This document shows positions 48,038 through 63,127 of a stretch of DNA of 64,000 nt, piece by piece. This DNA is from Amycolatopsis sp. WAC 01376. GTDB taxonomy: Bacteria; Actinomycetota; Actinomycetes; Mycobacteriales; Pseudonocardiaceae. The stretch is from contig NZ_QHKL01000013.1 of NCBI RefSeq assembly GCF_003947415.1, positions 1-64,000 on the forward strand. The letters run 5' to 3'. The position numbers were made by a program, and so were the translations under genes. Below the pieces are notes generated by a model. It had not been told where the DNA came from. It saw nothing but the letters and a program-made list of their open reading frames with translations, and searched no databases. The stretch's first letter is position 1; every line of letters starts with the position of its first letter.

Positions 48038-48056
48038 TTTTGGCAGCCTTACCTAA
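48038..48056. promoter_or_regulatory. IdeR/DtxR-like iron box
   Basis: Read on the minus strand the 19-mer is TTAGGTAAGGCTGCCAAAA, which agrees with the IdeR/DtxR consensus TTAGGTTAGGCTAACCTAA at 14 of 19 positions (counted by hand). It lies between the divergent aminotransferase operon and the siderophore-binding lipoprotein gene and could repress either or both when iron is plentiful. Confidence 0.65.
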
Positions 48057-49147: not shown

Positions 49148-50812
49148 TCACGACCCCACCTGTCCGACGACGACGTCGTGCCGCACCGGCGTGTCGTCGG
49201 CCATGATCCGGCCGATCGACGGCTGATGGCTGGGCGCGGTACAGATGACCAGATGCGGGCCCGGAGCCGTCGGCGCCGCGTGATACCAGCCGGTCTCGTC
49301 GGTGACGGTGCGGACGACGCGGCCACCGTCCGGATTCACCAGCAGCGCCACCGCGCCGGGCACCGGGTCGCCGTCGAGTCCCCGGACCCGGCCGGTGGCG
49401 GCCGCGAGCCGTTCCGCGGTTCGCGGCGGCAGGACGAGCATGCCGGCCACCGCCGCGGCCGCCACACAGCCCGCCGAAACGGCGAACGCGAAGGCGTACC
49501 CGTGCGCGAGTCCTTCCTGCATCGAAGACCCGCTCGCGGCGGCCGCGGCGATCGTGGTCAGCACGGCCAAACCGATCGCGCCACTGGTCTGCCGCACGGT
49601 GTTGAGCACGGCGGCGGCCACCCCGCCCGAGGTGGCGGGCACGCCGCTGGTCGCCGCCACCGTCAACGGGGTGAACGCCGACGCGGTCCCGAAACCGAAC
49701 ACCACACTCGGCAGCACGATCATCGCCACGGACGAACCGCCGGTGCCGAGTGAGGCCGCCACCCCGGCGAGACCGGCCGCCCCGAGGACGCAGCCCAGCG
49801 CCGCCGCGCGACGGGCACCGAGCCGGATGGTGAGCGGACCGGCGGCCTTGGCGCCAGCGAACATCGCCAGGCCGGCCGGCAGGAAACCGAGCCCGGCGGC
49901 GAGCGGACCGGCGCCGTGCACGTACTGCAGGACGAACGAGATCAGCACCGGAGCACCGAAGAAACCCAGGCCCAGCAGGAACATCACCAGATTCGCGCCG
50001 CGGACCGCCCGATGCCGGAACAAGCTCAACGGCACCAGCGGGGCCGCCGCCCAGCGCCCCTGGTGCAGCAGGAACAGCCCGCACAGCACGATTCCCGCGA
50101 TCAGCGGACCGGAGACCTCCGGTGCGCTCCAGCCCACGGTCTCCGACTCCATCACCGCGTACACGACGCCGGTCAGCCCGGCCGTCGCCAGGACGGCGCC
50201 GACGACGTCCAGCCGGTACGCCGATCCGGACCGGGAACCGCCGGGCAGCAGGGCCAAAGTGCCGGCGACCGCGACTAAGCCCAAGGGCACGTTGACGAAG
50301 AACACCCAACGCCAGCCCGCGAACTCGGTCAGGAGGCCGCCGGTCAGCGGACCGGACGCGGCGCCGACGGCACCGATCGCGCTCCACGTGCTCAGCGCGC
50401 GGGCACGCCTCGGCCCCGCCGGGAAGGTGTCGGTCAGCAGGGACAACGTCGCGGGCATCAGCAGCGCGCCGCCGACGCCCTGCCCGGCGCGCGCGGCCAG
50501 CAGGAGCGCCGGATCCGCGGCCAGCCCGGCGAGAAGGCTCGCCCCCGCGAACAGGCCCATCCCGGCCAGCAGCACCCGGCGCCGTCCGAAGACGTCCGCG
50601 CATCGGCCGCCGAGCAGCAGGCAGCCCGCGAACGCGAGCGTGTACGCGTTGACCACCCACGGCAGCGTCGCGGCGGAGAAGCCGAGATCGGCGCGGATCC
50701 TTGGCAGGGCGACCGAGACGATCGTGGCGTCCAGCACCACCACGAACGACCCGAGACAGGCCAGCGCGAGCACCAGGTGGTCGCGGCGGCGGGCGGGAGA
50801 AGACGTGCTCAT
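49148..50812 (-). CDS. MFS exporter (DHA2) with C-terminal soluble domain
   Basis: A 554-aa transporter of the 14-helix EmrB/QacA (DHA2) group, with GxxxGPxxGG-like motif C (GAASGPLTGGLL). After the last helix (about residue 465) a soluble tail of about 75 residues resembles a carboxypeptidase-regulatory-like beta-sandwich (GDPVPGAVALLVNPDGG...TDETGWYH). Such tails are unusual on MFS proteins. Export of the cluster product is likely. Its ATG overlaps the stop of the AtzG-like gene by 4 bp, so it is co-translated with the amidase pair. Confidence 0.87.
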   Translation of the reverse strand: MSTSSPARRRDHLVLALACLGSFVVVLDATIVSVALPRIRADLGFSAATLPWVVNAYTLAFAGCLLLGGRCADVFGRRRVLLAGMGLFAGASLLAGLAADPALLLAARAGQGVGGALLMPATLSLLTDTFPAGPRRARALSTWSAIGAVGAASGPLTGGLLTEFAGWRWVFFVNVPLGLVAVAGTLALLPGGSRSGSAYRLDVVGAVLATAGLTGVVYAVMESETVGWSAPEVSGPLIAGIVLCGLFLLHQGRWAAAPLVPLSLFRHRAVRGANLVMFLLGLGFFGAPVLISFVLQYVHGAGPLAAGLGFLPAGLAMFAGAKAAGPLTIRLGARRAAALGCVLGAAGLAGVAASLGTGGSSVAMIVLPSVVFGFGTASAFTPLTVAATSGVPATSGGVAAAVLNTVRQTSGAIGLAVLTTIAAAAASGSSMQEGLAHGYAFAFAVSAGCVAAAAVAGMLVLPPRTAERLAAATGRVRGLDGDPVPGAVALLVNPDGGRVVRTVTDETGWYHAAPTAPGPHLVICTAPSHQPSIGRIMADDTPVRHDVVVGQVGS

Positions 50813-51015
50813 GAAACCTTTCCTGTTCCTACTGCTTCTTCATCACCCGTCCGGAAGCCGAGGACGGGCAGCGCGTGACGAGCCGCGGGGAGGTCGTACA
50901 GCGCGTCGATCGCCGCTCGCTGCCAGGAATAGCGCGCGGCCAGCCCGGCGATCTCGGGTTCGGTGGCGGGCAGGGTCGCGGCCGCGAGCAGTACGCGGAT
51001 CTCCGGTTCGCTCAT
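50809..51015 (-). CDS. AtzG-like amidase partner (DUF4089)
   Basis: A 68-aa protein that matches the small DUF4089/AtzG type: an all-helical partner that binds and stabilises AtzE-like amidases. It lies directly between the amidase gene (4-bp overlap) and the exporter gene (4-bp overlap). Visible landmarks are MSEPEIRVLL at the start and YSWQRAAIDALYDL in the middle. The gene is easily missed because a longer false frame covers it. Confidence 0.75.
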   Translation of the reverse strand: MSEPEIRVLLAAATLPATEPEIAGLAARYSWQRAAIDALYDLPAARHALPVLGFRTGDEEAVGTGKVS

Positions 51016-52331
51016 GACGGCTCCGGCGGGGTCCGCAGATGCCAGCCGGTGGCCGACTGGAACGCGTCGCCTGCCTCCAGCAGTTCCGTTTCGCCGCGCA
51101 CCGGCCCGGCCAACTGCAGCGAAAGCGGCAGCCCGTCGGCGGTGAACCCCATGGGCAGCGCCAAAACGGGATTGGCGAGCCCGTTCCAGTACGGCGTGTG
51201 GATGACGCCGAAGAGTTCTTCGTTCTCCGGTAGCCCGGCGGGGGAGAGCAGCGACTCGAACCGGGGCGCGCCGACGGACGCCGTCGGGCAGGCGACGAGG
51301 TCCACTTCGGTGAAGAGTCCGTCGACCGCCCGCTGCGCGACCCGCCGCACGCGCTGGGCCTGGACGTAGTCGGCGCCGGTGACGAGCGCGCCGGTGGCCA
51401 GGAGTCCGCGTGTCCCGCGGCTGAAGTCGAGCCACCGATGGCACAGCTCCGCGCGGTGGTGGGCCAGCGCTTCACTGGCGACGGTCACCTGAACGGCCGT
51501 CACCAGTTCCGCCGGATACGGCAGCGTGATCCGGCTCAGCCGCGCGCCGAGTCCGGCCAGCACCGCGAGCGCGTCGGCGAAGACGCCGTCCAACGCGGGA
51601 TCGCGGCCGGGCGGGAAGTGGTGGTCGCGGACGACGCCGATCCGCAGCCCGGTGAGATCGCCGCGGAATTCGGGGCGCCGCACCGGCCCGGTCGCGGAAT
51701 CGGGATCGGCCGGATCCGGCCCGGCGAGCATTTCGAGCACCGCCGCGCAATCCCGTACGGAACGGGCCAGCGGGCCGATCCGGTCGAGGCTGTAGCCCAG
51801 CGGCACACAGCCGGTTCTCGGCACCCGGCCGTATCCGGGCATCAGGCCGGTGACCCCGCAGAACGCCGCGGGCACCCGGATGCTGCCCGCGGTGTCCGAG
51901 CCGATCCCGGCGAGGAACATCCCGGTCGCGACGCCGATTCCGGCGCCGGAACTCGAACCTCCCGCCCAGCGTCCGGTCCGCCACGGATTGCGGGGGATCG
52001 GGAAGGGGTGCTCCTGTTCCGGCATCCCGCAGGCGAACTCCATCGTGGTCGTCTTGCCGGTGAGCACCGCGCCCGCCGCCTTGAGCCGGGTGGCGACCGT
52101 CGCGTCCGTTCCCGCCAGCCAGCCGCGGTCGTGCACGAGGCTCTGCGCCGTCGTCGCGGCTTCGGCGGTGGCGATGATGTCCTTGACGCCGATCGGGATC
52201 CCGTGCAGTGGCCCGCGGTCCAGTCCGGCGGCGAGTTCGGCGTCCGCCCGTCTCGCCGCCGCGAACGCGGTCTCGTCGAGGCGGGTCAAATAGGCGCCGT
52301 AGACCGCGTCACCGCGATCCGCGGCGGCCAT
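51012..52331 (-). CDS. AtzE-type amidase (amidase signature family)
   Basis: An amidase signature enzyme, 439 aa from the first canonical start. The Ser-cisSer-Lys triad is visible: Lys in PIGVKDI, and the serine loop GGSSSGAG and GSDTAGSIR. The coding sequence clearly continues upstream of 52331: the same frame adds residues such as LTATAAALRDGTLTSIGLTEAA, which match the usual amidase N-terminus. No ATG, GTG or TTG is in that stretch; an ATC at 52427 has GGAGG 5 nt upstream and may be the true start. With the AtzG-like partner it probably hydrolyses or forms an amide of the cluster product. It is transcribed from the composite promoter at 52449-52492. Confidence 0.87.
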   Translation of the reverse strand: MAAADRGDAVYGAYLTRLDETAFAAARRADAELAAGLDRGPLHGIPIGVKDIIATAEAATTAQSLVHDRGWLAGTDATVATRLKAAGAVLTGKTTTMEFACGMPEQEHPFPIPRNPWRTGRWAGGSSSGAGIGVATGMFLAGIGSDTAGSIRVPAAFCGVTGLMPGYGRVPRTGCVPLGYSLDRIGPLARSVRDCAAVLEMLAGPDPADPDSATGPVRRPEFRGDLTGLRIGVVRDHHFPPGRDPALDGVFADALAVLAGLGARLSRITLPYPAELVTAVQVTVASEALAHHRAELCHRWLDFSRGTRGLLATGALVTGADYVQAQRVRRVAQRAVDGLFTEVDLVACPTASVGAPRFESLLSPAGLPENEELFGVIHTPYWNGLANPVLALPMGFTADGLPLSLQLAGPVRGETELLEAGDAFQSATGWHLRTPPEPS

Positions 52332-52448
52332 CGCCGCCTCGGTCAGGCCGATGCTCGTGAGCGTGCCGTCCCGCAGGGCCGCCGCCGTGGCGGTGAGGGT
52401 GCGCGGGCGCAGGGACGTGGTGCCGATGTCCGCCTCCGATCCATCAGG

Positions 52449-52492
52449 TGTGGTTAGCCTAACCTTGGACCCTCAACCCGGGTTGAGGTCAA
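52449..52492 (-). promoter_or_regulatory. Composite MerR/IdeR promoter of the amidase operon
   Basis: Read on the minus strand: -35 TTGACC (52492-52487), a 19-bp spacer containing most of the perfect dyad CCTCAACCCGGGTTGAGG (52471-52488), then -10 CAAGGT (52467-52462). The long spacer with a central dyad is the mark of MerR-activated promoters. The iron box CAAGGTTAGGCTAACCACA (52467-52449; 15 of 19 matches to the IdeR consensus) begins exactly at the -10, so a DtxR/IdeR protein would block it. The same layout recurs at 59838. Confidence 0.8.
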
Positions 52493-52744
52493 CTCGGGCG
52501 AAGCGGACCACCCGTTAGTGCCGCCCATCGGGCAAGCGGATGACTGAACGTCTGATGTTCGACAGAGCAGGTGTTTACTTGCTAGCCTGAACCAGGTTCC
52601 GCGCGCGGCCCTATCCGCGCGGACCACCGGTACGAGCGTTTTTCCGCCACCGGAGAATCCGGATCCGCCGAGGGGGATCCGCACCCGAACACCACGCCGC
52701 GCTGATCGTCGCGCTGCTCGAGTGGCGCCTGGGGAAGGACTCGC
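52493..52744 (+). other. Non-coding region before the PLP enzyme gene
   Basis: Together with the composite promoter this is a gap of about 320-410 bp. No ORF with convincing codon use is present. A possible plus-strand promoter is TTCGAC near 52560 with TAGCCT 19 bp further on, but it is weak. The segment TTGCTAGCCTGAACC resembles half an iron box with one extra base. A GC-rich inverted motif (GGATCC...GGGGGATCCG) lies near 52670. The ATG at 52745 has AAGGA 7 nt upstream. Confidence 0.3.
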
Positions 52745-53770
52745 ATGACCGACACCGCTCAGCCAGAGATCGCTCTCACTGTGGAAGAACCACTCGCCGC
52801 GGCACCGGATCAGGCGGTCGCGCTGACCCGGCATCCCGGGTTGCGGGAGTTCGCCGGACGGCTCGGCGACACCCCGCTGGTCGAGGTCCCCGGCCTGCCG
52901 GGCGGGGCGAAAGTGCTGGCGAAGTACGAATTCGCCAATCCGTTCGGTTCGGTGAAGGACCGCACCGCGTTCGCGCTGGTCTGCCGGGCGATCGCCGCGC
53001 ACACCGGGCCGGAGCCGCTGAAACTGCTGGACGCCTCGGCCGGGAACATGGCCCGCGCGCTCGCCGGACTCGGTGAACTGGCGGGGATCCCGACCCGGCT
53101 CGTGGTCCCGTCCGTCATCCCGCCGAGCCTGCTGACCGCGATGGAGAAGACGGGCGCGGAGATCGAACTCGCCGACGCGGCGGGCGGTCTGCTCGGGATG
53201 ATCAAGGTGTGCGAGAAGATCGCCGCCGACGACCCCTCACTCACCCCGCTCGTGCAACACCGGAACATGGCCAACGTCGCGGCCCACGAATTCGGTACCG
53301 GCAAAGAGATCCTGGACCAGCTCGGGGAGCACCGGCCCGCCGCCTGGGTCAGTGCGATCGGGACCGGCGGCACCCTGGCCGGCGTCCACCGTGCGCTGCG
53401 CACGCGGTGGCCGGACATCGTGGTCGCCGGGGTCACGCCCTCGGAAATGCCGTACGGCACCGAGCGGGCACCGCATTCCGAGCCCCGCTTCGCCGGGGCG
53501 GGCGGGTTCGGCAACGGGCTGCGTCAGCCGTTCGTCGACACCCAGCTCCCCGAGGCGGAACAACTGCACGTCACCTACGCCGAATCCCTGCGGGGAATGG
53601 TGGACTACCGGAAACTCACCGGCACCTCGATCGGCGCCTCCGCCGCGGCCGCGTGGCTGAGCGCGAAGAAGGTCGCCGAACGGTTCGGGCCAGAACAGGT
53701 CGTCGTGACCCTGTTCGCCGACGCCGGTCCCGAGGAGGATTGGGTCAAGGCCGAGCAGACGGCCGGATGA
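52745..53770 (+). CDS. PLP-dependent cysteine synthase/SbnA-like enzyme
   Basis: A 341-aa fold-type II PLP enzyme. The PLP lysine is in NPFGSVKDR (near residue 71) and the phosphate-binding loop is GTGGTL. Relatives are O-acetylserine sulfhydrylases, cystathionine beta-synthase and SbnA, which makes a 2,3-diaminopropionate precursor for siderophores. The next gene, 1 bp downstream, is a serine acetyltransferase, which argues for a local O-acetylserine route to cysteine or another beta-substituted alanine. No SbnB-type dehydrogenase is present, so diaminopropionate is less likely. Confidence 0.85.
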
Positions 53771-53771
53771 C

Positions 53772-54365
53772 ATGCGGCGGTCCCTCATCCGGTTGCGTGA
53801 GGATCTCGCGACCACAATGGACAAAGACCCGTCGGTGACCTCCCGCCTGGAGGCGCTCTGTCATCCCGCGCTGCCCGCGGTCTGGAGTCACCGGATCGCG
53901 CACCGGCTGCATCGCGGCGGCCACCGGATCCTCGCCCGGCTGCTGTCGAACGCGGCGAAAGTCCTGACCGGGGTGGAAATCCATCCCGGTGCCCGGATCG
54001 GCAGGCGCTTCTTCATCGACCACGGGAACGGTGTCGTGATCGGCGAAACCGCCGTCATCGGCGACGACGTGACCCTCTATCAACAGGTGACGCTGGGCGC
54101 CATCGGCTTCTGGCGTGACAACGCCAGGGCCGAGGGCGAGGCCCGGCATCCGCGTATCGGCGACCGGGTGGTCGTCGGCGCCAAAGCGACGGTGCTCGGC
54201 CCCGTGACCATCGGGGACGGCGTCGTGGTTCCCGCACACAGCCTCGTGCTCACCACCATCGAATCCGGAAGCAACGGGAAAACCCCAGTGATCGACCGAC
54301 GTTCGAAGATCGGAGACGGGAATGTCCAGCGACCTCATGGCCAGTATCCGGTTCAGCGAGAATGA
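53772..54365 (+). CDS. Serine O-acetyltransferase (CysE-like)
   Basis: A 197-aa left-handed beta-helix acetyltransferase with the serine acetyltransferase signature [22 protein letters not shown] (from about residue 72) and the LYQQVTLG loop. It makes O-acetylserine for the PLP enzyme encoded directly upstream. The C-terminus runs 44 bp into the next gene, an unusually long overlap. As a second, cluster-linked copy it may supply building block rather than bulk cysteine. Confidence 0.88.
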
Positions 54366-54900
54366 CCTCCGCGCCCGGGTCGCCAGGTTCACCGACCTGG
54401 CCGGAACGGACGGCGGCGCCCCGGACACGGTGCTCGCGGGTTGTGCACGCGTGATGTTCAACGTGATCGGTTTCCGGCCGCCGGAGCGCAACGGCGCCGA
54501 CGACGACCAGGTGATCTCCCCGATCGGCGCGAAGAGTTCGGGGAACGCGCCGATCGACATCGCCGAGGGCTTCAACCTCGCCTACATCAAGGCAACGCCG
54601 GGAAACGGCACGATCCTGCACAACCACGACACGAACGAGACGTTCATCCCCTTGAGCGGCACCTGGCGGTTCCGCTGCAACGACGAGGACGACCTGTACG
54701 TCGACCTCGGTCCGTTCGACGTGATCTCCCTGCCCGCCGGGCTCCAGCGCCGGTTCACGAACCTGGCGGCCGCTCCCGGGACGGAAGAGAGCCTGATGAT
54801 CGTCATCGTGGCGGGAGACCGCCCGAAGTCGGTCATCTACCCGGAAGTACTGCAGGCCGCGCGGACCGAAGGCGCGTACACCCCGGCCACCTTCGCCTAG
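54322..54900 (+). CDS. Cupin domain protein
   Basis: A 192-aa single-domain cupin. Metal-binding residues of motif 1 are visible in [14 protein letters not shown] (about 93-106) and motif 2 around [14 protein letters not shown]. The ATG at 54322 follows GGAG 7 nt upstream and lies inside the serine acetyltransferase gene. The reaction is unknown; cupins in such clusters are often Fe- or Mn-dependent dioxygenases or isomerases. It has 20-30 residues of extra sequence before the barrel. Confidence 0.82.
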
Positions 54901-54939
54901 ACGACGGTGGCTCTCGCCGAACCCGTGGTCGAGGTGCGC

Positions 54940-55211
54940 GTCGCGAAAGCCACTTTGGCGGACCTGTATTTGCCTGCCCACTGGATACTGATGCGGGTGA
55001 GCGGGGAAGATTCCGGACGTTCAACGTCCGGAATCTTCCCCGCTCGGCGAACCCCCTTCGACGATGGAGGAATTGGGACACTCAACGTCCCGAATCCTCC
55101 ACACTCGAACGTGCCGCCGCTGACGCTTCACCTTCGCCCTGGTCAAGTATGGGCAAGCAAATACCGGTCCGCGTTCGCGACGCTTGGTGTCCCGAAAGTG
55201 GCTTTCGCGAC
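54940..55211. repeat. Nested inverted-repeat block without genes
   Basis: This fills most of the 410-bp gap between cupin and DsbA-like genes. The outer arms GTCGCGAAAGCCACTTT (54940-54956) and AAAGTGGCTTTCGCGAC (55195-55211) match perfectly over 17 bp. A second arm pair (54958-54980 with 55150-55172) matches at 21 of 23. Inside are two tandem hairpins: 55001-55043 (20-bp perfect stem, loop TCA) and 55066-55100 (14-bp stem, two mismatches), whose arms are related to each other (GGAAGATTCCGGAC and GGAGGATTCGGGAC on opposite strands). No ORF here looks real. Confidence 0.75.
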
Positions 55212-55310
55212 ACCGCCGCCCCACGGCCACGACCACCCCGGCCGGCACGTCCCGCCAGTCCGGTCTCCAAATCACGCGAACCCACCTTGTCTCCAGAAAC
55301 GAGGACAGCG

Positions 55311-55922
55311 ATGACCGAGTCCCCCGTCCGGGCCGACCTGTGGTTCGACCCGATCTGCCCGTGGGCGTGGCAGACCTCGCGGTGGCTGCTCGAAGCGGCC
55401 GAAGTACGCGAGATCGACCTGCGCTTCCACCTGATGAGCCTCGCCGTGCTGAACGAAGGCCACCAGTTGCCCGAAAAGTACGAAGTGATGATGCGCGAAG
55501 GCTGGTACCTCTCGCGGGTCATCGCGGCCGCCGCCCGTGACCACGGCGAGAAGGCCGTCGAACCCCTGTACACCGAGATGGGCACCCGCATCCATCCCGG
55601 CGGGAACGAGGACTACCGCGAGGTCACCGGTCTGGCCCTCGAAGCTGCCGGGCTCCCGGCCGGACTGGCAAGCGCCGGAACGGACACGACACTCGACGCC
55701 ACGATCCGCACGAGCCACGACGAGGCGATGACCGCGATCGGGCCCGACCTCGGCACGCCGGTCGTGCGGATCGACGGCGGCGCCTGTTTCGGCCCGGTGC
55801 TCGCCGAGGTCCCGCGTGGCGAGGCCGCGGGCCGGATCTTCGACGGCGTCCGGGCACTCACCGGATTCGAGTATTTCTTCGAGCTGAAGCGGACGCGGAC
55901 CGCGGAACCCGTTTTCGGCTGA
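55311..55922 (+). CDS. DsbA-family (mycothiol nitroreductase-like) protein
   Basis: A 203-aa thioredoxin-fold protein of the DsbA group, close to the mycothiol-dependent nitroreductase Rv2466c type by its opening WFDPICPWAWQTSRWL. The usual CPWC active site reads CPWA (Cys19 to Ala22), leaving a single cysteine, as in glutathione/mycothiol-transferase-like members. The start ATG 55311 has GAGGA 5 nt upstream; the longer open frame is false. The gene stands 23 bp before asnB. A role in thiol chemistry of the pathway is possible. Confidence 0.85.
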   Translation: MTESPVRADLWFDPICPWAWQTSRWLLEAAEVREIDLRFHLMSLAVLNEGHQLPEKYEVMMREGWYLSRVIAAAARDHGEKAVEPLYTEMGTRIHPGGNEDYREVTGLALEAAGLPAGLASAGTDTTLDATIRTSHDEAMTAIGPDLGTPVVRIDGGACFGPVLAEVPRGEAAGRIFDGVRALTGFEYFFELKRTRTAEPVFG

Positions 55923-55945
55923 CACCACGGTTACTGGGAGGCGAA

Positions 55946-57787
55946 ATGTGCGGAATCACCGGCTGGGTGTCGTTCGAGGACGACCTGCGGAGCCAGCGCC
56001 CGATCCTCGACGCGATGACGGCCACGATGTCCTGCCGCGGTCCGGACGCCGGAGGTGCCTGGCTGGACCGCCATGCCGCGCTCGGGCACCGCAGGCTCGC
56101 GGTGATCGACCTGCCCGGCGGTGTGCAGCCGATGTCGGCGGGCACCCCGGCCGGTGACGTGGCGCTGGTCTACAGCGGTGAGGTCTACAACTACACCGAG
56201 CTCCGGAAGGAACTGCGGGACAAGGGGCATCGGTTCCACACCGACAGCGACACCGAAGTGGTTCTGCGCGGTTACCTGGAATGGGAAGAGGGGGTCGCGG
56301 AACGGCTGAACGGCATGTACGCCTTCGCCGTCTGGGACTCCCGCACCGCGAAGCTGGTGCTGATCCGGGATCGCATGGGCGTGAAGCCCCTTTACTACCA
56401 GGCGACTTCCGGCGGCGTGCTGTTCGGTTCCGAGCCGAAGGCGATCCTGGCGAACCCGCGGGCGCCGCGTGTCGTGGACGCGGACGGTCTCCGCGAACTG
56501 GTCGCCTTCACGAAGAAACCCGGCTGGTCGCTGTGGAAGGACATGCACGAGGTCGAGCCGGGGACGATCGTCACCGTCGACGACCGCGGGATCCGTTCGC
56601 ACACCTACTGGCGGCTGCGGACGGTTCAGCACACCGACGATCAGGACGCGACGGTGGCGCGGGTCGGCGAGCTGATGACCGACATCGTGCACCGCCAGCT
56701 GGTCTCCGACGTGCCGAGGTGCGTCCTGCTCTCGGGCGGGCTGGATTCGAGCGCGGTCACCGGGATCGCGGCCTCGCGGCTCGCGGAGTCAGGGGAGCCG
56801 CTGCGCACGTTCTCGGTCGATTACGCCGGACAGGAGGAGAACTTCCGCCCGGACGAGATGCGCGACGCGCCGGATTCGCCGTTCATCCGCGACGTCGTCG
56901 ATCTCGTCGGCTCGGTGCACGAGAACGTCATGCTGGATCCCGCCGAGCTCACCGATCCCGACGTGCGCCGGGCCTGCGTCGCCGCGCGGGACATGCCGTC
57001 CGGGCTCGGCGACGTCGACCTCTCGCTCTATCTGTTGTTCAAGGCCATCCGGCAGCAGTCCACAGTGGCCTTGTCGGGGGAGGCGGCGGACGAGGTGTTC
57101 GGCGGCTACCGATGGTTCTTCGAAGAGGAGTCCCGGACCACCGACATGTTCCCGTGGCTGGTGTTCCGCAACGCGGTCACCAGTGATCGGGAGAACCTGC
57201 TCCGCCGTGACGTCCGCGAGGCGCTCGACGTGCCGGCCTACGCCGCCGACGAGTACGCCGCCGCGGTCGCGGAGGTCGAGCAACTGCCGGGGGACGACGC
57301 CCTCGAACAACGGATGCGCGTGATCTGCCACCAGAACCTGACCCGGTGGGTCCGGGTGCTGCTCGACCGGAAGGACCGGATGTCGATGGCGGTGGGGCTG
57401 GAGGTCCGGGTCCCGTTCTGCGATCACCGGCTCGTCGAGTACGTCTACAACACTCCGTGGGCGTTCAAGACCTTCGACGGCAGGGAGAAGAGCCTGTTGC
57501 GGCAGGCGACGAAGCATCTTCTGCCGACTTCGGTCGCCGAGCGGCTGAAGAGCCCGTATCCGTCCACACAGGACATCGGATACGCGGTCGCGCTTCAGTC
57601 ACAGGCGAAACAGGTGCTCGCGGACCTCGATTCACCGGTTTTCCAGCTGGTGAACCGGGATTGGGTGTACGACGCCGTCCAGGCCGACGCGGCGACGTTG
57701 TCCGGCCAGACGCGGCACGGTCTGGACCGCGTGCTGGATCTCTTCCACTGGTTCGATCTGTACCGGCCGGCCATCCGTCTCGGTTGA
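55946..57787 (+). CDS. asnB: Glutamine-hydrolysing asparagine synthetase
   Basis: A 613-aa enzyme with an N-terminal class II glutaminase domain (nucleophile Cys2 in MCGITGW) and a C-terminal ATP-pyrophosphatase synthetase domain with SGGLDSS at 263-269. Length and domains match AsnB. In antibiotic clusters such enzymes often make a carboxamide on the product instead of asparagine, which may apply here since an amidase is also in the cluster. It starts with AGGCGAA-type spacing after the DsbA-like gene and is convergent with a GntR gene (14 bp apart). Confidence 0.92.
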   Translation: MCGITGWVSFEDDLRSQRPILDAMTATMSCRGPDAGGAWLDRHAALGHRRLAVIDLPGGVQPMSAGTPAGDVALVYSGEVYNYTELRKELRDKGHRFHTDSDTEVVLRGYLEWEEGVAERLNGMYAFAVWDSRTAKLVLIRDRMGVKPLYYQATSGGVLFGSEPKAILANPRAPRVVDADGLRELVAFTKKPGWSLWKDMHEVEPGTIVTVDDRGIRSHTYWRLRTVQHTDDQDATVARVGELMTDIVHRQLVSDVPRCVLLSGGLDSSAVTGIAASRLAESGEPLRTFSVDYAGQEENFRPDEMRDAPDSPFIRDVVDLVGSVHENVMLDPAELTDPDVRRACVAARDMPSGLGDVDLSLYLLFKAIRQQSTVALSGEAADEVFGGYRWFFEEESRTTDMFPWLVFRNAVTSDRENLLRRDVREALDVPAYAADEYAAAVAEVEQLPGDDALEQRMRVICHQNLTRWVRVLLDRKDRMSMAVGLEVRVPFCDHRLVEYVYNTPWAFKTFDGREKSLLRQATKHLLPTSVAERLKSPYPSTQDIGYAVALQSQAKQVLADLDSPVFQLVNRDWVYDAVQADAATLSGQTRHGLDRVLDLFHWFDLYRPAIRLG

Positions 57788-57801
57788 CCGGCCCGGTTCG
57801 C

Positions 57802-58533
57802 TCAACGGCGCTTCGGCGTGCTTTTCCTTTTGCGGGAAGCGGTTTTGTTCTGTGCCTTGGTCAGCACCGCGACGGCGGCGTCGATGATCACCGCGACGGC
57901 CCGTTCGGCGCGGTCGGCGTCGCCGTCGGTGATGGCCTCGGCGAGGGTGTCGTGATCCGGGAAGTCGATGTGCTCGCGGCGCAGCTCGGCCATCACCGTC
58001 GCCACCCCGCTGCTCAGCGCGTAGCTGAGGCCCTCCCACAGTTCGATCAGGACCGCGTTGTGCGTGGCGGAGATGATCGCCGCGTGGAATTCGTTGTCCG
58101 CGGCGAGGAAAGCGTCCTCGTCCCCGGCGTCACGTGCTTCGTGCTGGGCGGCGAGTGCGGCGGTGATCCGGGCGAGGTCTTCGGCGTTCCTGCGTTCCGC
58201 CGCCGTCCTGGCGGCCTGGCGCTCGATGCTGTTGCGGACTTCGAGTACTTCGAGGACGTTCGCGGCGCGGGTTCGCCGCAGCAGGGCCGCGGACAGCCCG
58301 TGCCGTGCTCTGACGTAGGTGCCGTCGCCGCGGCGCGGCTCCAACAGCCCGGCGTGCTCAAGGGCGCGGACGGCTTCGCGGACCGTGCTGCGCCCGACCC
58401 CGAGTTGCTCGACCAGCTCCTGTTCCGGCGGGATACGGGAGCCGACCGGCCATTCGCCGGTCTCGATCAGTTCCTCGAACTGGTCGACCACAGTGGACGA
58501 GAGTCTCGCTGTACTGGCCGCTCGAAGTGGCAT
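57802..58533 (-). CDS. FadR/GntR family (FCD) transcriptional regulator
   Basis: A 243-aa regulator with a winged helix at about 20-78 (LGVGRSTVREAVRALEHAG) and an FCD domain (about 90-230). The C-terminus is lysine-rich. The ATG at 58533 follows GGAGGG. Upstream at 58580-58590 lies GATCATATGAC, with the palindrome TCATATGA in it, a candidate operator. Its targets are not clear; it is not coupled to any pathway gene. Confidence 0.87.
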   Translation of the reverse strand: MPLRAASTARLSSTVVDQFEELIETGEWPVGSRIPPEQELVEQLGVGRSTVREAVRALEHAGLLEPRRGDGTYVRARHGLSAALLRRTRAANVLEVLEVRNSIERQAARTAAERRNAEDLARITAALAAQHEARDAGDEDAFLAADNEFHAAIISATHNAVLIELWEGLSYALSSGVATVMAELRREHIDFPDHDTLAEAITDGDADRAERAVAVIIDAAVAVLTKAQNKTASRKRKSTPKRR

Positions 58534-58663
58534 GGCGGTCTCCCTCCTTCGGCCCCCGGATGTGGACATCAGATCGGCAGATCATATGACATCTTACTGC
58601 CTTGCCCCGGCGGAACACGCACGCCTGTTCGAAAAACGAGAGGCAAGGCGCGAAAGAACAATG

Positions 58664-59404
58664 TCAGCGACCGGCAACGCAGCGGATGCGTGCCGGAACC
58701 GCGGAATTCGGCGCGGCGGGATCGCAGACGATCATCCTCGACGCCTGATTTCGTTCGAGGATCACGGTCGCGGTGGCCGTCCGCGCTTCGAACCGCCGCC
58801 CGTCGGCCGGGGTGAGCGTCATTCGCGCTCCCGGGGTGAGGCCCGCGGCCAGAAGCGTTCCGAGGAACGCGGAATCGTCCTGGATCCGTTCACTGATCCG
58901 GTGCAGCCGGACCTCTTGCCGTCCGGCGTGGGTGGCCGGCCGCATTCCCGGCGGCGCCGGCACCGGGGGAAGGCCGGACAGGCCGAGAAAGGCCAAGCCG
59001 GGAATCGGCCCGCCGTACGGGCTGAACCGCGGCCCGCCGCAGAGTTCGAAGATCCGGCGCGCGGCGGCGTCGGACATCACGTGTTCCCAGCGGCAGGCCT
59101 CGTCGTGCAGCCGGACCCAGTCCAGCCCGATCACCCGATAGAGGAGTGTTTCCGCGAGGCGGTGCTTGCACATCACCCGCACCGCGATCCGCCGTCCCTC
59201 CGGCGAAAGCTCCAGCCGCCGGTCCTCGGCGACCAGGAGGAGGCCGTCGCGCTGGAGGCGGGCCACGGTCTGGCTGACCGTCGGCGGGCTCTGCTCGAGC
59301 CGGTCCGCGATCCGGGCGCGCAACGGGACGACACCGTCCTCTTCCAGCTCGTAGGCTGCTTTGAGGTACATCTCGGTGGTGTCGATCAGGCCACGGGCGG
59401 TCAT
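58664..59404 (-). CDS. IdeR/DtxR paralogue, iron-dependent regulator
   Basis: A 246-aa member of the DtxR/IdeR family: winged helix (residues about 5-70, SPPTVSQTVARLQRDGLL), dimerisation domain and C-terminal SH3-like domain (about 165-240). All seven metal ligands known in IdeR are kept with an offset of two: Met12, His81, Glu85, His100, Cys104, Glu107, His108. The recognition helix is nearly that of IdeR, so it should bind the same iron boxes seen at 48038, 52449 and 59863. Because IdeR is usually a core gene elsewhere, this is probably a cluster-specific second copy. Its promoter has a MerR-type site but no iron box. Confidence 0.9.
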   Translation of the reverse strand: MTARGLIDTTEMYLKAAYELEEDGVVPLRARIADRLEQSPPTVSQTVARLQRDGLLLVAEDRRLELSPEGRRIAVRVMCKHRLAETLLYRVIGLDWVRLHDEACRWEHVMSDAAARRIFELCGGPRFSPYGGPIPGLAFLGLSGLPPVPAPPGMRPATHAGRQEVRLHRISERIQDDSAFLGTLLAAGLTPGARMTLTPADGRRFEARTATATVILERNQASRMIVCDPAAPNSAVPARIRCVAGR

Positions 59405-59412
59405 ACTCCGGA

Positions 59413-59443
59413 AGCCTGCCCCCTCAACCCGGCTTGAGGTCAA
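59413..59443 (-). promoter_or_regulatory. MerR-type promoter of the IdeR paralogue
   Basis: On the minus strand: -35 TTGACC (59443-59438), a 19-bp spacer, -10 CAGGCT (59418-59413). The dyad CCTCAACCCGGCTTGAGG (59422-59439, one mismatch) fills the spacer. The -35 overlaps the stop of the merR gene and the -10 lies about 9 nt before the ATG, so the message is nearly leaderless. No iron box is present. Confidence 0.75.
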
Positions 59444-59829
59444 GCGCCCGGCAGCTCCACTGTGGACCGGAACTCCGGACAGCGTTCCAGCGTGTTTTCG
59501 GGGCAGCGAAGCAGATGGTGCAGATAGGTCCGCGCGGTGGCGAGCTTTTCCAGCTGGGACTCCAAAGCTTCGATACGGGCCGAGACGGTGTCCCGCCAGT
59601 CGTGCGTGGCGGTGCGCCCGGCGAGCACGGTCGCGATCTCGTCGAGGCTGAGCTGGCCGGTGTCCCGCCACAGCCGGATCAGGGCGATCCGGTAGAGCTG
59701 GTCGGTGTCGTAGTAACGCCAGCCGGATCGCCGGTGCGGCTTGATCAGTCCGCGGCGTTCCCAGTAGTGCAGGGTCGAAACCGGAAGGTCGAACCGGTCG
59801 GCGACTTCTCTGATCGATGCGGATTCCAT
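59440..59829 (-). CDS. MerR family transcriptional regulator
   Basis: A 129-aa MerR protein: helix-turn-helix at residues 4-40 (ADRFDLPVSTLHYWERRGLI, with RYY at 38-40), a dimerisation coiled coil (about 80-105) and a short C-terminus with His104, His105, Cys109 and Cys117, possible metal or redox ligands. The ATG at 59829 gives the normal MerR start; 59880 is too long. It is divergent from the Rph/PigC-like gene, and its likely binding dyad CTCAACC-N2-GGTTGAG lies between them (59843-59858), with further copies at 52471 and 59422. Confidence 0.88.
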   Translation of the reverse strand: MESASIREVADRFDLPVSTLHYWERRGLIKPHRRSGWRYYDTDQLYRIALIRLWRDTGQLSLDEIATVLAGRTATHDWRDTVSARIEALESQLEKLATARTYLHHLLRCPENTLERCPEFRSTVELPGA

Positions 59830-59837
59830 GACATCAT

Positions 59838-59881
59838 TTGAACTCAACCCAGGTTGAGGATGCAAGCTTAGGCTAAGCAAA
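59838..59881 (+). promoter_or_regulatory. Composite MerR/IdeR promoter of the PEP-synthase-like gene
   Basis: On the plus strand: -35 TTGAAC (59838-59843), a 19-bp spacer with the dyad CTCAACCCAGGTTGAG (59843-59858), -10 CAAGCT (59863-59868). The iron box CAAGCTTAGGCTAAGCAAA (59863-59881; 14 of 19 matches to the IdeR consensus) starts exactly at the -10, as at 52467. The distances from -35 to dyad to -10 to iron box are the same in both composite promoters. Confidence 0.8.
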
Positions 59882-59897: not shown

Positions 59898-62459
59898 ATG
59901 AAAGTGATTCTCGAGCTCGCCGAAGCGGGAGGAAGCCCGCGCGACCTCGTCGGTGGCAAGGCGGCGAACCTCGCGGAAATGACTTCGGCGGGTTTTCCCG
60001 TGCCGGAGGGTTTCTGCGTCACGACCGCCGCGTACCGGCACGTGCTCTCCGACGGCGAGGGGCCGCGGTTGCTCGGCGAGCTGACGAGGGTGCCGTCCGG
60101 CGACGAGGGACGGCTGGCCGAACTGGCGGACCGGTTGCGGTCCCACGTCCTGACCGTCCCGATCCCGGCCCGGCTCGAAAGCGGGATCGTCGAGGCGTAC
60201 GAACGGCTTTCGCGAGGCGAGCCGGCGGCGGTCGCGGTGCGGTCTTCGTCGACGGCCGAGGATCTGCCGGACGCCAGTTTCGCCGGGCAGTACGACACCT
60301 TCCTCGACATCCAGGGCTCCGGCGAGGTGCTCGCGGCGGTGCGCCGATGCTGGGCCTCGCTCTGGTCGGAGCGGGCGACCAGGTATCGGGCGGCACACGG
60401 CACCGATCGCGGACCCGCCATCGCGGTGATCGTGCAGCGCCTCGTCGACGCCGAATGCGCCGGCGTGCTGTACACGGCGAATCCGGTGTCGGGCAAACGT
60501 TCCGAGATCATCGTCGACGCCGCTCCCGGCCTGGGTGAAGCGGTGGTCTCCGGCGCGGTGACCCCGGATCACTACCGGCTGACCGTCGACGGCGAATCCC
60601 TCGAAGGCCCGGACGACGGTTGCCTGACGCCGTCACGGCTCAGTGAACTCGCGGCCGTCGGCAGGCATCTGGAGAAGCACTTCGGCGCCCCGCAGGACGT
60701 CGAGTGGGCGTTCAACGGCGAGGGTGAGCTGTGGCTGACCCAGTCGCGGCACATCACCACGCTGTTCCCCGTCCCGGAGAGCGACGAACCGCGCGCGTAC
60801 TGGTCGGTCAACGTCTACCAGGGGATCAGCCGGCCCTTCACGCCGATGGGCGCGTCCATGATCCGCGAACGTCAGCGCGGGATGGCGGCGTACATGAGCG
60901 CGCTCGGCTTCTCCGACGAGATCACCGACGTGGACGGGTGGCTGTACTGGGACATCACCGACGGCGTGCGGAGCCCGGCGAAGCGGCCGAAGATGGCGGC
61001 GTTCGTGGACAGTCTCGCCGCGCCTTCGGGTCGGCTCGTAGAGCAGCTCGGCCGTGATCGCCGGTTCCCCTCGGTGGCGTCCGGTTCGGAGGAGGACGTC
61101 CCGCCGAAGAAACGGCGTCGCCGCTGGGAACGGATGATCCCCGCGTGGCTGTGGCCGGATCAGGCCCGTGCCAAGGTCGTCCGCGACGCCGAACGGCGGA
61201 TCGCCGCCTTCACCGGGCCCGCCGAGGCGACGGCGGAAGAACGGCTGTCCTTTGTGGAATCCGTGCGGCGTGACGTTTGCCGGATCGAGGCGAACCTCCC
61301 TCGCGACGCCAACACCGCGGGCGGGACGGGCGGGCAGCTGGCCGGGCAGTTGCTGCGCGGTCACGTGAGCGACGCCGAGGTGGCCACCGTTTTCCGGGGT
61401 ATCCCGCACAATCCGACCACCGAGATGGATCTGGCGTTGTGGCGGGCGGCGGCCGCGATCCGGCGCGACGACGAGGCCTTCCGGCTGTTGCTGGAGACCG
61501 CGCCCGACGAACTGGCCGCCAAACACCTCGCCGGGACCCTGCCGGAGGCGATCCAGCACGGCGTCGCCGCGTTCCTGGCCGAATACGGCTGCCGCGCGAC
61601 CTCGGAGATCGACTTCGGCGTGCCTCGCTGGACCGATGACCCCGAGCCGGTTTTCGCGATGCTCTCGAACCTGCTTCGCGCGGAAGGGGAGGAGCAGGAT
61701 CCGGAAACCCGCTTCGAGCAGGCGGCCGCGGCGGCCGAAGCGCGGATCGTCGAGCTCACCCGGCGGCTTCCGGTGACCAAGCTGCACCGGGCGCTGCTCG
61801 CGCGGTTCCTGCTCCGGCGGTCGCGGCGGTTGCGCGGCCTGCGTGAGTTCCCCAAGTTCTGCCTCATGCGCGGTTTCGCCGCCCTCCGGACACAACTGCT
61901 CCTCGTCGGCGAGGAGATCGTGCGGGCGGAGCGGCTGGAGCGGGCCGGCGACGTGATGTTCCTCGACCTCGCCGAAGTCCGCGAAGCCTTGGACAGCAGG
62001 GACTTCCGCGCGACCGCCGCACGGCGCAGGGAGATCTGGGAGCGGGAATCGCGGCGGCCCCGCGTTCCGTCGGTCGTGCTTTCCGACGGCACCGCGCCCG
62101 CCCTCGAATCCACTTCGGACGGTGGCGACCTCGCCGGGCTGGCGGCGGCGGCAGGGGTGGCGACCGGCCGGGCGCGGGTGATCCACGATCCGGACGGGGC
62201 CCGGATCGAACCGGGCGAGATCCTCGTCGCCGCGACGACGGATCCCGGGTGGACGCCGCTGTTCCTGACGGCCGCCGCGCTGGTGACCGAAACGGGCGGG
62301 ATGATCTCCCACGGCACCACCGTGGCCAGGGAACACGGGATCCCGGCTGTGGTCGGCGTTCCGGGCGCAACGACGCGGATCGTCACCGGTCAGGTGATCA
62401 CCGTCGACGGTTCCGCCGGGACCATCACCTTCGGCGAGACGGCGGAGGATTCCCGGTGA
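59898..62459 (+). CDS. Rph/PigC-like PEP-synthase-family enzyme
   Basis: An 853-aa enzyme with the PEP synthase/PPDK domain order of rifampin phosphotransferase: ATP-grasp domain (residues about 1-290, GGKAANLAEM, RSSSTAEDLPDASFAGQ), a central substrate domain and a C-terminal swivelling domain with the phospho-carrier His805 in GGMISHGT. Rph phosphorylates rifamycins; the relatives PigC/RedH join two pyrrole units in prodigiosin synthesis. The rifamycin-associated 19-bp element typical of rph genes is not upstream; instead the composite MerR/IdeR promoter is. So a pathway role (condensation, or phosphorylation of the product) seems likelier than rifamycin resistance. GGAGG is only 2 nt from ATG 59898 but 8 nt from GTG 59904, which may be the true start. 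Confidence 0.87.
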   Translation: MKVILELAEAGGSPRDLVGGKAANLAEMTSAGFPVPEGFCVTTAAYRHVLSDGEGPRLLGELTRVPSGDEGRLAELADRLRSHVLTVPIPARLESGIVEAYERLSRGEPAAVAVRSSSTAEDLPDASFAGQYDTFLDIQGSGEVLAAVRRCWASLWSERATRYRAAHGTDRGPAIAVIVQRLVDAECAGVLYTANPVSGKRSEIIVDAAPGLGEAVVSGAVTPDHYRLTVDGESLEGPDDGCLTPSRLSELAAVGRHLEKHFGAPQDVEWAFNGEGELWLTQSRHITTLFPVPESDEPRAYWSVNVYQGISRPFTPMGASMIRERQRGMAAYMSALGFSDEITDVDGWLYWDITDGVRSPAKRPKMAAFVDSLAAPSGRLVEQLGRDRRFPSVASGSEEDVPPKKRRRRWERMIPAWLWPDQARAKVVRDAERRIAAFTGPAEATAEERLSFVESVRRDVCRIEANLPRDANTAGGTGGQLAGQLLRGHVSDAEVATVFRGIPHNPTTEMDLALWRAAAAIRRDDEAFRLLLETAPDELAAKHLAGTLPEAIQHGVAAFLAEYGCRATSEIDFGVPRWTDDPEPVFAMLSNLLRAEGEEQDPETRFEQAAAAAEARIVELTRRLPVTKLHRALLARFLLRRSRRLRGLREFPKFCLMRGFAALRTQLLLVGEEIVRAERLERAGDVMFLDLAEVREALDSRDFRATAARRREIWERESRRPRVPSVVLSDGTAPALESTSDGGDLAGLAAAAGVATGRARVIHDPDGARIEPGEILVAATTDPGWTPLFLTAAALVTETGGMISHGTTVAREHGIPAVVGVPGATTRIVTGQVITVDGSAGTITFGETAEDSR

Positions 62460-63127
62460 CCGCGGTGGCATCCGCGCTCACCGGCGCGTTCAACTTCCGC
62501 GACACCGGTGGCGGGCCGATCCGGCGGGGGAGACTGTTCCGCAGCGACACCTTGCAGGCGCTGACCGGAACCGACAAGGAACTCCTGCTCGGCCGGTTCG
62601 GTATCGAGGGCGTCCTCGATCTCCGCTCCAGTGCCGAGACGGTCAGCGAGGGCCGGGCGGAGTTACCCGGTGTCCGCTATGTGAACGTGCCGTTGAAGAC
62701 CGTCCAAAGCGGACGGTCGAGCGCGCTGGAGGAGATTTACGTCGATCATCTCCGGCACGACGAGAACCTGCCGATCGCCATGGAGATCCTGGCGGTCCTG
62801 CTGGCCCGTCCCGTCGTGGTGCACTGCGCGTCGGGCAAGGACAGGACCGGCGTCGTCACGGCCCTCGCGCTCGGGCTCGCCGGGGCGCCGCGCGAGCTGA
62901 TCGTCCAGGACTACCTGCGCAGCGCGTACAGCCTTCCCCGCGTGATCGAGCGGTTCCGCCCGCTCGGCTTGCCGGAGGAACTGTTCCGGTGCACGGAGAG
63001 CACGATCAACGCCTTGCTGGACAGCGTCGAGGACGACTTCGGCGGGTTCGCCTGCTGGGCCCGGCAGCGTGGCGTGTCCGACGCGGCCGTCCGGACACTG
63101 AAGGCTCGCTTGCTCAACAACGGGTGA
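62456..63127 (+). CDS. Tyrosine-protein phosphatase-like enzyme
   Basis: A 223-aa phosphatase of the Y_phosphatase3 type (PtpB/IphP relatives) with the P-loop HCASGKDRTG (Cys124, Arg130) and the N-terminal FNFRDTGG motif. The GTG at 62456 overlaps the upstream stop by 4 bp, so it is co-translated with the PEP-synthase-like enzyme. If that enzyme phosphorylates a metabolite, this one could remove the group, a kinase/phosphatase self-protection pair; that is inference. Lipid or protein phosphates are other possible substrates. Confidence 0.88.
   Translation: MTAVASALTGAFNFRDTGGGPIRRGRLFRSDTLQALTGTDKELLLGRFGIEGVLDLRSSAETVSEGRAELPGVRYVNVPLKTVQSGRSSALEEIYVDHLRHDENLPIAMEILAVLLARPVVVHCASGKDRTGVVTALALGLAGAPRELIVQDYLRSAYSLPRVIERFRPLGLPEELFRCTESTINALLDSVEDDFGGFACWARQRGVSDAAVRTLKARLLNNG

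Follow-up and report, generated by a model that had tools for sequence, protein, structure and literature searches.

In a 64,000-nucleotide stretch of the genome of Amycolatopsis sp. WAC 01376 (contig NZ_QHKL01000013.1, positions 1 to 64,000; hereafter the window), we found two promoters in which a dyad of the kind used by MerR-family activators and a predicted box for the iron-dependent IdeR/DtxR repressors are joined at an identical spacing. A third promoter with the dyad and without the box stands before the gene of a DtxR paralogue, all within a cluster of siderochelin type. These promoters suggest, with a probability that we put at roughly 0.6, that the MerR regulator of the cluster (SidR1 type) activates all three, that two of them are gated by iron, and that the DtxR paralogue (SidR2 type) is a brake whose synthesis SidR1 itself drives.

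Composite promoter 1 (52449..52492, minus strand) faces an operon for an amidase, an AtzG-like protein and a major facilitator superfamily (MFS) exporter, and consists of a -35 TTGACC (52492-52487), a MerR dyad (52487-52472), a -10 CAAGGT (52467-52462) and an IdeR/DtxR box (52467-52449). Composite promoter 2 (59838..59881, plus strand) lies between the divergent merR gene and an Rph-like gene, faces the latter together with a phosphatase gene, and has the same parts: -35 TTGAAC (59838-59843), dyad (59843-59858), -10 CAAGCT (59863-59868) and box (59863-59881). Its -35 is 8 nt from the start codon of merR. In both promoters the spacer holds a perfect dyad of two 7-nt arms, CTCAACC-N2-GGTTGAG (CTCAACCCGGGTTGAG in promoter 1, CTCAACCCAGGTTGAG in promoter 2), and the box begins at the first base of the -10. 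By inspection the spacer is 19 bp in all three promoters of the window, within the 19-20 bp that we take to be the rule for MerR promoters. Against TTAGGTTAGGCTAACCTAA, which we take to be the IdeR/DtxR consensus, the boxes CAAGGTTAGGCTAACCACA and CAAGCTTAGGCTAAGCAAA score 15/19 and 14/19, respectively, values that are inflated because the -10 (CAAGST) counts as part of the box; boxes were scored on one strand in some comparisons and on the better strand in others, so that some scores differ by one. The DtxR consensus printed in the available part of PMC11481915 differs from ours only at the central base. The chance of at least 14/19 was 4e-5 for 15-mers drawn from the window behind a given CAAG start, a draw that includes the boxes themselves. 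A sequence-only reading of this DNA had placed both 44-bp elements at these positions and described their -35, spacer, dyad, -10 and box as we find them; its remark that the design is the same to the base holds for the spacing, whereas the sequences agree at only 37 of 44 positions. The adjacent flanks match little.

The third promoter (59413..59443, minus strand), which that reading had missed, has a -35 TTGACC (59443-59438), a 19-bp spacer containing the dyad with one mismatch (59438-59423) and a -10 CAGGCT (59418-59413). This promoter runs into the end of merR, with 8 nt between its -10 and the ATG of the DtxR-paralogue gene. The IdeR box is absent from this promoter and likewise from all four sidR2 promoters that we tabulated. 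Counterparts were found in Nocardia crassostreae (one mismatch), Goodfellowiella and two further genomes (G273 and G971), with 6-8 nt from the -10 to the start codon, a distance as would be expected of a leaderless message. Our comparison of 30 IdeR-type loci took in 3 of SidR2 type and 27 others. The dyad promoter stands before all five SidR2-type genes examined, in one case with a mismatch, and before none of the 27 ordinary IdeR genes, where the best match has at least six mismatches, so that SidR1 probably drives the SidR2-type repressor gene too, in a predicted feed-forward loop.

The SidR2-type protein itself (58664..59404, minus strand) retains the presumed metal-ligand and base-contact positions: M10, H79, E83, H98, C102, E105, H106, P39 and Q43 are invariant in all four aligned SidR2-type proteins, the numbering of the metal-site and base-contact residues being what we take to be that of DtxR. 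It scores 256.6 bits against a cut-off of 290 for the NCBIfam actinobacterial DtxR model, and judged by this score it is a paralogue and not an ordinary DtxR equivalog. Among 80 genomes of the genus, a SidR2-type gene (profile score above 300 bits) is present in only three, that of the window, G273 and G971.

In the mechanism that we propose, SidR1 bound to the dyads would activate the promoters of the amidase/AtzG/MFS operon, the Rph-like/phosphatase operon and sidR2, and is predicted to do so by realigning the long spacer. The box lies over the -10, where a repressor would block RNA polymerase, as expected of an IdeR/DtxR operator. An iron-loaded DtxR-family dimer (SidR2, the ordinary IdeR, or both) on this box would cover the -10 and the start region and shut out the polymerase even with SidR1 active, so that output from a composite promoter would require a SidR1 signal AND low iron. 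The promoter of sidR2 is of SidR1 type but lacks the box, so that SidR1 would raise its own brake; the circuit would be an incoherent feed-forward loop with iron loading the brake.

Within the source assembly (30 contigs, 9,071,542 bases), the dyad pattern CTCAACCNNGGTTGAG is matched perfectly at composite promoters 1 and 2 and nowhere else; a single mismatch is seen at 59423-59438 alone, and two mismatches at 16 sites. The control with the pattern reversed gave five. Canonical IdeR boxes with at most three mismatches number nine, six of them beside iron or siderophore genes as judged from the translations; the window boxes (15/19 and 14/19) fall under this cut. Further, only 1 of 29 other MerR genes examined in this genome has a box of at least 13/19, in a comparison that drew on 30 of the 40 MerR_1 matches.

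The same element was found in relatives. N. crassostreae (L006) and Goodfellowiella (L007/G029) have most of the cluster, both without an amidase adjoining the exporter, and the box recurs at the same offset at the exporter and Rph-like promoters of the former (13/19 each) and at the Rph-like promoter of the latter (14/19). In four genomes of another genus, a composite promoter (14-15/19) stands before an amidase/MFS unit that diverges from a merR gene (57-65% identity); the remaining cluster genes were not found in the 15-20 kb examined. The core of the box has two 5-nt arms that are fully complementary in 5 of 13 elements despite their different letters (GGTTA/TAACC, GCTTA/TAAGC, GCTTG/CAAGC twice, and GGTAA/TTACC), and the -10 at the fixed offset reads CARNNT in 16 of 17, with G375 showing TCTGGT in a spacer register set by script. 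Among 30 loci with similar MerR dyads, six have a box of at least 12/19 at this offset, all at an Rph-like or amidase gene, and the other 24 score at most 10. A different arrangement is seen in G231, G054 and G124, where the Rph-like gene has a dyad with a poor box and an IdeR box of 14-15/19 lies just upstream of a distant merR (53-55% identity). We read this pattern as the same iron control possibly shifted up to merR, in series rather than in parallel. In G054 and G124 (loci L174 and L175), and not in G231 (L173), a two-mismatch dyad without a box also precedes the MFS gene adjoining merR.

The association of SidR1-type regulators with IdeR boxes extends across the family. SidR1 profile matches were found in 34 of 80 genomes of the genus and in 6 of 394 of a class sample, the source genome being in both. 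An IdeR box of at least 13/19 lies within 131 nt upstream of merR at 35 of 42 SidR1-profile loci (33 with at least 14), compared with none of 168 control segments of the same loci and, among 4200 dinucleotide shuffles of the boxed stretches, 23 with at least 13 and one with at least 14. The 42 loci also take in matches from other searches, with close relatives kept separately; among the 41 profile matches listed, 30 come with a locus, G171 enters via L151, and 10 are not in the 42 (one, at 8227246 of G989, is beside L273). A family scan for the composite pattern returned 18 sites in 16 of 390 genomes, and the reversed pattern returned none. Downstream of the 18 sites are amidase genes (8), Rph-like genes (4), an ABC exporter gene (1) and others (5), the last six assigned by reading translations. 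The element is not scattered at unrelated genes, which the sequence-only reading had named as grounds for abandoning the idea, because a divergent merR gene adjoins 14 of the 18 sites; it is SidR1-like (at least 47% identity) at 12 of these and of another MerR type at two (L282 and L285). The site at L283 has no adjoining MerR gene and may be due to chance. A restriction to this cluster, also raised by that reading, holds within the source genome for the perfect dyads, which occur only at the two elements, but a composite element unique to the cluster is rejected by the 16 family genomes that carry it. A stricter scan at the level of the order gave four sites in 3 of 397 genomes. At L178, in a genome from a different family of that order, the box stands at the composite offset and scores 15/19.

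We consider it about an even bet that these loci belong to an actinobacterial class of iron-gated MerR regulators of SidR1 type, arranged either in parallel (box over the -10) or in series (box on merR, dyad on the target), to which siderochelin-type clusters would add a MerR-driven DtxR repressor and so bring siderophore export and accessory genes under an incoherent feed-forward loop loaded by iron. The idea that all MerR/IdeR pairs share a single geometry was rejected: among SidR1-profile loci the box of L210 is at offset 33 and that of L206 at 20, and in a second MerR group, about 40% identical to SidR1 (L152-L155 and L182), the dyad promoter has its IdeR box 32-37 nt past the start of the -35. 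At L152 this promoter faces an apparent ABC transporter gene (by its translation), another layout of dual control. Separately, L273 (G989:C1:8227152-8227195) has a near-perfect 18/19 IdeR box at the composite offset, between MerR and ABC-exporter-like genes.

Several observations weigh against iron-gated, SidR1-activated promoters with SidR2 as the brake. The dyad is present with no box at the Goodfellowiella exporter promoter (6/19). The same is true of two more distant Rph-like genes, those of A. anabasis (L008, at most 10/19) and Nonomuraea typhae (L009, at most 8/19). At the Rph-like gene of A. keratiniphila the box reaches only 12/19, and at those of G231 and G054 it is poor (9/19 and 10/19). 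Seven of the 42 SidR1-profile merR loci are without a box, one of them (L207) beside an amidase gene, and the loci counted are related, so the counts are not independent events. Finally, according to the accessible part of PMC11481915, SidR1 or SidR2 overexpressed alone in a host without these regulators left the siderochelin titre unchanged with or without iron. Two DtxR homologues are native to that host, and what was measured was biosynthesis (PMC11481915, same part). The position of the composite promoters at non-biosynthetic genes suggests why a biosynthesis titre may not respond.

The alternative that survives best, although we hold it to be clearly less likely, is that the composite promoters are real and their repressor is the ordinary genomic IdeR, SidR2 acting elsewhere or redundantly, which would leave an AND gate without the feed-forward loop. 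The sequence-only reading had assigned the IdeR paralogue to the gate. The MerR and paralogue genes do adjoin composite promoter 2, but the paralogue need not be the repressor, because the four composite-amidase-promoter genomes have a single IdeR-like gene each (E <= 1e-20) and no SidR2-type gene, another point against SidR2 as the brake; the same holds for G124, G231 and G054. Further, the base-contact residues, as we presume them to be, fail to separate SidR2 from IdeR, and the lack of effect of SidR2 overexpression, as described in the portion of PMC11481915 at hand, fits this alternative as well. On the other side is the SidR1-type promoter ahead of SidR2-type genes in every one of the five cases examined and, as a weak point, that boxes under the cut for canonical sites might suit a dedicated paralogue.

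It seems improbable that SidR1 mainly autoregulates itself and the downstream regulators, as has been speculated in print, with the second dyad incidental. What was accessible of PMC11481915 is in keeping with that view, in that it reports a single perfect dyad, located ahead of sidR1-R3, and a titre that SidR1 left unchanged. However, the window, Goodfellowiella and N. crassostreae each have three dyads with 19-bp spacers, every one before a different gene (two of the Nocardia ones with one mismatch), and the absence of perfect dyads elsewhere in the source genome argues against an incidental second one. That the box is a mere extended -10 and start region of MerR promoters resembling an IdeR box, its score raised by the -10 (CAAGST) within it, is very unlikely and was rejected, since most MerR-dyad loci (24 of 30) and all four tabulated sidR2 promoters lack the box, 23 of the 35 boxed merR loci have it without a dyad within one template mismatch (L151 and L203 keep a degenerate dyad), and L273 has its 18/19 box at the same offset.

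Classical MerR-family promoters (CueR, SoxR, MerR) have a 19-20 bp spacer with a central dyad and are often divergent from the regulator gene; the composite promoters differ from these in the extra IdeR box over the -10 and start region. Promoters of the IdeR/DtxR/DmdR1 regulons have a 19-bp inverted-repeat box overlapping the -10 or the start, and the composite promoters differ in their predicted dependence on a MerR activator as well. The logic of a pathway activator plus an iron repressor, with separable inputs to the same siderophore system, is already known from YbtA/Fur (yersiniabactin) and PchR/Fur (pyochelin), as set out in the accessible part of PMC8725597. Those systems, by the same account, pair an AraC-type activator with Fur in Gram-negative bacteria, whereas the window pairs the MerR and DtxR families, has the box over the -10 at a fixed spacing, and has an activator that apparently drives the repressor gene of the cluster. 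The sequence-only reading had called its gate undescribed. Among the open-licence PMC papers listed in literature searches, no title or opening of an abstract described the fusion of a MerR dyad with a DtxR/IdeR box or a DtxR paralogue driven by the activator, and we regard as new the MerR/DtxR version with its fixed spacing and activator-driven paralogue, but not the general logic.

By gene families, the cluster appears to match the siderochelin cluster of Amycolatopsis WAC04611 as described in the available text of PMC11481915. Common to both are MerR, DtxR and GntR/FadR-like regulators (SidR1-3), 3-hydroxypicolinate genes (aminotransferase, FAD-dependent dehydrogenase, FMN-dependent monooxygenase), discrete polyketide synthase parts, an AMP ligase, O-acetylserine and pyridoxal phosphate (PLP)-enzyme genes, and transporters; our comparison covered sidR1R2R3 and the 3-hydroxypicolinate, ketosynthase/ligase and O-acetylserine/PLP genes, and found these present. 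In that text the authors noted three DtxR-like sites and one perfect dyad, speculated that SidR1 autoregulates, showed SidR3 to be a repressor, assigned no role to SidR1 or SidR2, and reported that low iron alone does not start production. As far as the text goes, their description, unlike ours, stops at one dyad, does not have a dyad overlapping a box, and does not extend control to the Rph-like gene; this gene falls outside their proposed boundary, sidR1. The sequence-only reading had taken the AND gate to serve the metabolite cluster; dyad and box at a fixed spacing are consistent with such a gate, but the composite promoters face the amidase/exporter and Rph-like genes and not the biosynthetic operons. 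They name the exporter/amidase operon, the Rph-like operon and sidR2 as likely SidR1 targets, and the family-wide pattern provides a signature by which transporter and amidase genes linked to siderophores can be recognized in actinomycete sequences.

The SidR1-type regulator (59440..59829, minus strand; 129 aa; Pfam MerR_1, 66.2 bits) has two C-terminal cysteines, C109 and C117, which all seven aligned proteins share, a feature known from metal-sensing MerR proteins. A GntR-family regulator of SidR3 type (57802..58569, minus strand) was recognized by its family profile and published counterpart. Facing composite promoter 2 are a gene for an Rph/RedH-PigC-like enzyme of the phosphoenolpyruvate-synthase family (59898..62459, plus strand) and, second in the unit, one for a tyrosine-phosphatase-family protein (62456..63127, plus strand). 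Behind composite promoter 1 come an AtzE/GatA-type amidase gene (51012..52331, minus strand), a small AtzG-like open reading frame (50809..51015, minus strand), which owes its name to the sequence-only reading and has no Pfam match, and an EmrB-type MFS exporter gene (49148..50812, minus strand; Pfam/NCBIfam). The true start of the amidase probably lies upstream of the listed ATG. Its frame is open upstream of the ATG at 52331 (52331-52470, minus strand) and by eye resembles the N-terminus of its relatives there; after the promoter there is no in-frame ATG, GTG or TTG, only CTG or ATC, with an ATC at 52427 directly behind GGAGG.

Pfam/NCBIfam models identified the regulatory and accessory genes as MerR, DtxR-type, GntR, Rph/RedH-like, amidase, EmrB-type MFS and an iron-siderophore-type binding protein, and the biosynthetic genes as a CysK-type enzyme, an asparagine-synthase-type enzyme, a DegT aminotransferase, an FAD oxidoreductase, a luciferase-like monooxygenase, ketosynthases and an AMP ligase. 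A hexapeptide acyltransferase is CysE-like by its translation. DtxR-like boxes of at least 14/19 occur at three places in the window (52449, 59863 and 48038). The third (48038..48056; 14/19) has no MerR dyad and lies between the genes of a sidH-type aminotransferase and a siderophore-binding protein. It is not conserved in two relatives, N. crassostreae and Goodfellowiella, where the corresponding places score at most 10/19 and 11/19. A mycothiol-dependent nitroreductase gene (Rv2466c-like; 55311-55922, plus strand) also lies inside the siderochelin-type cluster.

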